Below are positions 16,779-16,853 of a stretch of 20,180 nt of DNA, one piece after another. Both the position numbers and the translations under genes were made by a program. Position 1 is the first letter of the stretch; every line of letters begins with the position of its first letter. The stretch spans positions 1-20,180 of the IMG/VR virus record IMGVR_UViG_3300042673_000621; one strand, written 5' to 3'. Source of the stretch: a virus. The notes beneath the pieces were generated by a model. The model searched no databases and had not been told where the DNA came from. It was given only the letters and a program-made list of their open reading frames with translations.

Positions 16779-16853
16779 ATGAAATGGGAAACACCAACAT
16801 ATGTTGATTTACGTTTTGGCTTTGAAGTCACTATGTATATTTACAATCGTTAA
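16779..16853 (+). CDS. pqqA: PqqA, precursor peptide of pyrroloquinoline quinone
   Basis: A 24-residue peptide, [14 protein letters not shown] then [10 protein letters not shown]. It matches bacterial PqqA closely: an N-terminal K-W/W-K-x-P, D-L-R-(I/L/F)-G-(F/L), the crosslink motif Glu16-Val-Thr-Met-Tyr20 and a C-terminal N-R. In hosts, PqqE with PqqD joins this Glu to this Tyr, and later steps build PQQ, the cofactor of periplasmic alcohol and glucose dehydrogenases. It has a very strong AAAGGAGGT ribosome site 8-14 nt upstream and a terminator just downstream. No pqqB-E gene lies in the window, so host enzymes would be needed. Recognition rests on residue-by-residue recall of Klebsiella, Pseudomonas and Acinetobacter PqqA. 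Confidence 0.88.
   Translation: [24 protein letters not shown]

Follow-up and report, generated by a model that had tools for sequence, protein, structure and literature searches.

One molecule of the precursor peptide PqqA is consumed for every molecule of PQQ. A Glu and a Tyr of the precursor are crosslinked by PqqE together with PqqD, and more PqqA can raise PQQ (PMC9851590, PMC7936290). In a Gluconobacter extract 70-80% of purified PqqA was converted (as cited in PMC9851590), and separate extra pqqA copies occur in a methylotroph (PMC9851590). Phage-borne PqqA as a kind has been known since 2020, when the T4-like phage population VP_266 of Lake Baikal was described with PqqA and a methanol dehydrogenase; a Methylophilaceae host was predicted and an aid to methanol oxidation was proposed (PMC7678222). 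Virus-encoded pqqA, pqqE and pqqD are listed among many genes in a 2026 reservoir study (PMC13188868). The pmoC-phages are large methanotroph phages whose pmoC may assist C1 oxidation, and neither "pqq" nor methanol dehydrogenase appears in the main text on them (PMC7674155). As for the phages of OM43, pqqA is absent from the main text of one paper, which names PQQ solely as a medium additive (PMC9004378), and "pqq" is absent from the main texts of three others (PMC10580990, PMC8024684, PMC8163748). No report of pqqA in pmoC-phages or cultured methylophages was found in the literature searched, which consisted of main texts, mostly open-access, including PMC7674155, PMC10904782 and PMC9875498, with the P19250A paper outside its scope.

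The stretch of DNA analyzed here, called the window, is a virus record of 20,180 bases. An earlier note on its letters had reported a phage pqqA and left open whether such a gene had been described before; phage PqqA had (PMC7678222), and what we did not find in the literature is the breadth of its occurrence and its link to pmoC. Like VP_266, the window has pqqA in a T4-like phage of what is predicted to be a C1 oxidizer. The two differ in that the window peptide appears to be of the methanotroph type and belongs to a lineage with pmoC, whereas VP_266, compared by its description, has a predicted Methylophilaceae host and a methanol dehydrogenase (PMC7678222). The pmoC-phages, whose published genomes were also compared by description (PMC7674155), resemble the window lineage as large phages, of methanotrophs by prediction in our case, with a possible aid to C1 oxidation among their genes, and a collinear relative of the window, G050, has pmoC; in the 20-kb window itself no pmoC was seen. 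With PqqA of the order holding Methylobacter (PF08042/TIGR02107) the window peptide shares Trp3, Gly14, Glu16, Tyr20 and the IYNR end. Unlike that PqqA, it is phage-encoded, without pqqB-E, and its gene lies 3′ of a tail gene.

The features of the locus are collected in Table 1. The identification of the peptide as PqqA was borne out, coordinates and frame included, by profile searches that scored far over their cut-offs: 42.8 bits with Pfam PF08042 (E 4.6e-11, cut-off 21.1, model positions 1-19 of 19 covered) and 44.8 bits with the NCBIfam equivalog TIGR02107 (E 7.4e-12, cut-off 20, positions 1-21 of 21 covered). The Glu-x-x-x-Tyr residues that are fused into PQQ are present. None of the 14 control genomes matched in the TIGR02107 genome search, and a PHROGs search with the peptide gave no match at E 1. 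It is highly improbable that the peptide feeds another modified-peptide product or a signal and not PQQ: nothing specific favors such a product, the match to the PqqA equivalog model is full and includes both fused residues, and the isolated phages that carry the gene grow on Methylophilales, which are methanol users.

Table 1. Features of the window and the evidence for each
Feature	Position	Strand	Context	Evidence
Iron/manganese superoxide dismutase gene	12634-13185	+	between nrdA and nrdB	PF02777, 80 bits; 87% identical in G050
HNH endonuclease gene	13198-13677	+	between superoxide dismutase gene and nrdB	PF13392; no match in G050
CATAAATA, presumed T4-late-promoter-like motif	15923-15930	+	heads the PAAR-pqqA unit	weak
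ORF of unknown function	15935-16474	+	5′ of PAAR, in the PAAR-pqqA unit	without confident family
PAAR protein (tail-spike tip by family)	16474-16761	+		PF05488, 8e-14; phrog_281, 1.9e-33
Shine-Dalgarno AAGGAGGT	16764-16771	+	7 nt 5′ of the pqqA ATG
pqqA, PQQ precursor peptide	16779-16853	+	24 codons, then TAA; Glu16, Tyr20	PF08042, TIGR02107; slot kept in relatives
Stem-loop terminator	16855-16876	.	between pqqA and the convergent ORF	-13.6 kcal/mol, z -4.05 (fold analysis)
Convergent ORF of unknown function	16891-17763	-	bounds the PAAR-pqqA unit	32% identical in G050
Candidate structured RNA	17895-18153	+	5′ of an RlpA-like ORF; also L108, 7351-7610 (+), and G050, about 126185-126546	conserved stretch
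Phage-encoded ribosomal protein S21	19047-19304	+		PF01165, 54 bits

Only 17 nt separate the PAAR stop from the pqqA start, and pqqA closes the tail-tip unit, as the earlier note had said. The 8-mer AAGGAGGT occurs twice in the window against 0.25 copies expected by chance, the second copy (1402-1409) lying inside an ORF; to call it the strongest ribosome site was fair by this rarity, which is an 8-mer count and not a ranking of sites. The stem-loop 3′ of the pqqA stop is real by fold analysis, and a simple terminator scan of the window did not list it. It had been described as the gene's own terminator, but since it sits between pqqA and the convergent ORF it is common to both. At the other end of the unit, just 4 nt lie between CATAAATA and the listed ATG of the ORF that follows, and NATAAATA is found 10 times on the + strand of the window and never on the - strand (a raw count, without shuffle control). 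The likeness to the T4 late promoter, which is our assumption, weakly hints that pqqA may be expressed late, together with PAAR.

The gene is phage-borne. G050, a viral contig of 171.6 kb, matches 26 of the 33 window ORFs with E-values no higher than 0.01; 25 of the matches are collinear, and the identities are 91% for nrdA, 91% for nrdB and 82% for S21. Its pqqA occupies the same slot, flanked by PAAR and a terminator of like kind, and is 83% identical to that of the window, as against 33% for PAAR and 32% for the convergent ORF. Another contig, G006 (88.6 kb), contains the window's genes as well as virion, tail-fiber and baseplate-hub proteins (PHROG matches in 8 of 10 ORFs examined). A host-type metabolic gene in a phage genome is what the collinearity with G050 and the virion and tail genes on G006 show. 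Nothing close to the window at the nucleotide level was found in the collection of 50,697 phage records, and nrdA and PAAR were dropped as placement markers for the phage, being too widespread.

The earlier note had proposed to look for the same ORF after PAAR in related phages, and there it recurs. Of the 72 loci that a PAAR search retrieved from IMG/VR, eight (L249-L254, L256, L257) have pqqA directly 3′ of PAAR; all eight fall among the ten with a PAAR identity of at least 71%. A pattern test found no pqqA in the other two of these ten, L255 and L258, nor in the other 62 loci, and TIGR02107, applied to the window and to the L249-L257 records, agreed with it (nine of ten positive, L255 negative). 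In L255, whose PAAR is 82% identical, the PAAR stop runs almost straight into a similar stem-loop, a clean presence/absence difference of a Shine-Dalgarno-plus-pqqA cassette, and in L258 (PAAR 71% identical) another gene follows PAAR. L256 and L257 encode the same peptide with one synonymous change, and for their PAAR genes the DNA identity is 73-74%. Contamination of viral records with bacterial DNA, or chimeric assembly, is a hardly credible source of the gene. Two matches in the phage collection do look like bacterial pqqABCDE contigs filed as phage, and IMG/VR may hold others, but the PAAR-pqqA-terminator order recurs in eight PAAR-matched viral loci and in G050, and complete genomes of isolated phages carry pqqA. 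For the window, bacterial contamination was dropped on the collinearity with G050.

Three pattern scans of IMG/VR gave at least 262 distinct stretches (120 + 39 + 103), which are related and often near-identical and come from contigs taken without a one-by-one phage-gene screen. The first, degenerate scan returned at least 120 stretches, with PqqA-like ORFs in 120 of 120 among the matches listed. The second, in which residues 16 and 20 were left free, also returned at least 120, and Glu and Tyr stood at these positions, with the same end length, in all 120 viral stretches among the matches listed. The third, of the D-x-R-F-G-F type, gave 109 stretches; 108 matches were re-read and 103 passed a start-and-length test, the other five having no ATG close enough. 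Across 110 distinct DNA versions, Tyr20 was encoded by TAC in 60 and TAT in 50, Asn23 by AAC in 59 and AAT in 51, and Glu16 by GAA in 108 and GAG in 2. The third base appears to drift at Tyr20 and Asn23 with the residue fixed; these codon counts, taken from related sequences under a pattern that fixed several further residues, are not a dN/dS. A Shine-Dalgarno-like core was found within 20 nt 5′ of all 256 viral pqqA ORFs tested, compared with 1,334 of 10,480 random 20-mers of the same loci.

These observations bear on whether pqqA is a passenger, a host fragment acquired by chance and unused. Its presence in some relatives and absence from L255 would suit a passenger, but it is kept in G050, whose flanking proteins are just 32-33% identical, it shows synonymous wobble with fixed residues, every one of the 256 viral copies tested has the Shine-Dalgarno-like core, and it is found in phages with quite different gene neighborhoods. 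A passenger is therefore improbable. In our judgment the window quite probably carries a functional pqqA of the methanotroph type that selection has retained as an auxiliary metabolic gene and that would supply a consumable substrate.

The gene is also present in phages that have been isolated. A tblastn search with the window peptide against the 50,697 phage records (E up to 10) matched 12: nine records of phages isolated on Methylophilales (four of Melnitz, and P19250A, MEP401, MEP402, Venkman and MEP301), one uncultured podovirus from Manatee Spring (L008, MW202481), and two bacterial contigs. The E-values of the phage matches were weak with this short query (5e-3 to 6e-2), and therefore TIGR02107 was run on seven of the ten phage copies before they were accepted, the three further Melnitz records being outside the set. 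All seven passed (cut-off 20 bits, scores of 34 to 40.9); six of them (Melnitz, Venkman, P19250A, MEP301, MEP401 and MEP402) are cultured methylophages with a PqqA ORF. On further phage copies in all, ten of ten were over the cut-off (34 to 49.8 bits against 20). The six methylophages are like the window in having a PqqA ORF without pqq neighbors, here in genomes from isolated phages, and unlike it in the N-terminal halves and ends of the peptides and in their genome neighborhoods. None of the ten phage records has the name PqqA under the match. That gene callers would miss so small a gene had been anticipated correctly: in the seven annotated records checked, PqqA is never named, the ORF being unannotated in five, and Melnitz EXVC044M and the podovirus annotating solely an ORF on the opposite strand. 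Phages with pqqA are a widespread, annotation-hidden set, larger than described and apparently unnoticed.

Some of these matches deserve separate mention. The podovirus has a Methylophilales-type pqqA and shares with Venkman, at 82% identity, a small stretch in the exonuclease region (3% of a 6-kb query). These features hint that it infects Methylophilales. The two bacterial contigs, L003 and L009 (CAKLQF020000010, CAKLQH020000055), are named Acinetobacter phage MD-2021a but, with their pqqABCDE operon, look like pieces of host genome that were submitted as phage. A plasmid search gave 44 records, and the ten listed are Burkholderia-group replicons.

The earlier note had suggested a PQQ-making host such as a marine methylotroph; one of the OM43 sort was not upheld. 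The window peptide was compared with bacterial peptides from a genome scan of at least 118 stretches and from 30 loci of a survey of the order holding Methylobacter. Among the matches listed, the closest share 23 of 24 residues, L135 (a Cycloclasticus sponge symbiont) and L217, both of that order; Methylomonas, Methylobacter and other Methylococcaceae loci are among those sharing 22 of 24. PqqA of the Methylophilaceae is clearly different, and an OM43-type host was dropped because the peptide type does not fit. By residue comparison, then, the window peptide appears to be of the methanotroph type and not of the OM43 type. G050 carries pmoC (404 bits) and was the sole carrier among the 39 viral records in that test, in which a Methylobacter genome served as positive control. 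Since both the peptide type and this pmoC-bearing collinear relative point the same way, a gammaproteobacterial methanotroph is predicted as the host. A pmoC search of the window and nine PAAR-matched records, whose contigs measure 4.3 to 88.6 kb, was negative and was repeated with a positive control for the window and six of the nine; on the window's close relatives neither pmoC nor methanol dehydrogenase was found. The first 1,000 bases of the pmoC locus of G050 had no match in the phage collection.

Approached from the other side, 138 stretches in IMG/VR matched PmoC and the best 80 were taken; 31 of those 80 records, chosen by length, were tested for pqqA. Five pmoC-bearing viral records had it: G207 (372 kb), G050, G210 (188 kb), G219 (39 kb) and G222 (259 kb). 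The other 26, several of which are fragments, had none.

Viral pqqA stands apart from the rest of its pathway. PqqB, PqqC, PqqD and PqqE of the Acinetobacter operon were found by tblastn in none of 262 viral loci, whose median span around the match is 7.2 kb, so that the absence is one near the match and not from whole genomes; they were found in none of the 72 PAAR loci either. The same search of 118 bacterial loci found PqqB in 54, PqqC in 46, PqqD in 35 and PqqE in 31. The usual neighborhood of pqqA beside pqqB-E, common though not defining, is not that of the viral copies. Of 47 viral records with pqqA, one (G032, 72 kb) had a methanol dehydrogenase (608 bits, both parts), detected with a model that gave a below-cut-off signal in 9 of 14 controls, and this record resembles the VP_266 case in joining pqqA and methanol dehydrogenase. 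In a comparison of bacterial genomes (G017-G020; L132, L140, L172, L145), pqqA was present in six copies in Methylophaga, four in Methylotenera, three in a Nitrosomonadales bacterium and five in Methylophilus, and in one or two copies in the eight other genomes.

A role in precursor supply agrees with the constancy of the two residues that become crosslinked and with the kinds of phages that carry the gene. We infer a host origin of pqqA, its expression and timing, the processing of the peptide, and an effect on PQQ and phage yield. The precursor would be exhausted before the enzymes once a lytic phage has shut down the expression of host genes; pqqA alone would suffice for the phage because the peptide is spent one per PQQ and the enzymes persist. 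During infection the phage peptide would be made from the transcript that also encodes PAAR. The host's PqqD and PqqE would then take it up and join Glu16 to Tyr20, and a host protease and PqqB/PqqC would complete PQQ. In this way the PQQ-dependent methanol dehydrogenase would not run short of its cofactor while expression of the host's own pqqA breaks down.

The isolation of viral pqqA from the other pathway genes is also what an inhibitor could show. As a decoy, phage PqqA would occupy PqqD/PqqE, lower host PQQ and shift metabolism in the phage's favor or against rival phages. However, a decoy could afford to lose a crosslinked residue, yet both are kept in 120 of 120 among the matches listed; the viral peptides are of host types and would be good substrates; and pmoC, as well as methanol dehydrogenase in one record, accompanies pqqA, both favoring oxidation. 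We consider a decoy very improbable, and a dead decoy was dropped given the 120 of 120 and the codon wobble.

Several points count against precursor supply. In Acetobacter, extra pqqAB raised PQQ by just 29% and the whole operon about eightfold (PMC7936290), and therefore enzyme supply can limit PQQ. The gene is not universal, being absent after PAAR in L255 and L258 and from 26 of 31 pmoC records, and the order of the predicted host already has pqqA (144 of 151 genomes sampled). PQQ was supplied to cultures of the OM43 host H5P1 (PMC9004378), so uptake of PQQ is also possible.

Association with phages of C1 oxidizers extends from several kinds of Methylophilales phages to large pmoC-phages, putatively of methanotrophs. 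On balance we favor the view that supply of consumable PqqA is a widespread and repeatedly acquired strategy of phages on PQQ-dependent C1 oxidizers, each kind having the local host type of pqqA and leaving the enzymes to the host. Repeated acquisition is proposed because the neighborhoods differ and the peptides are of host type, PqqA being too short for a tree. If this is true, some phages would support both steps, methane to methanol through pmoC and methanol to formaldehyde through pqqA, with a bearing on viral influence over natural methane and methanol oxidation. The auxiliary gene would deliver a substrate rather than an enzyme, and its small size hides it from annotation. Melnitz and Venkman on the OM43 strain H5P1 are cultured phage-host pairs with pqqA that make the role testable now, and a host-type peptide could help to assign hosts to uncultured phages.

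Farther along the window, the conserved stretch 5′ of the RlpA-like ORF is 87% identical in G050, where the flanking proteins are just 32% and 67% identical. Rfam gave nothing at the gathering threshold and nothing plausible at E 5, and no tRNA or tmRNA was found in it. In L108, a more distant phage contig also with pqqA, it is 73% identical over 271 nt. RNAalifold folded it into 77 pairs with a long closing stem, just two of which covary, and it is a candidate for an unknown structured phage RNA.
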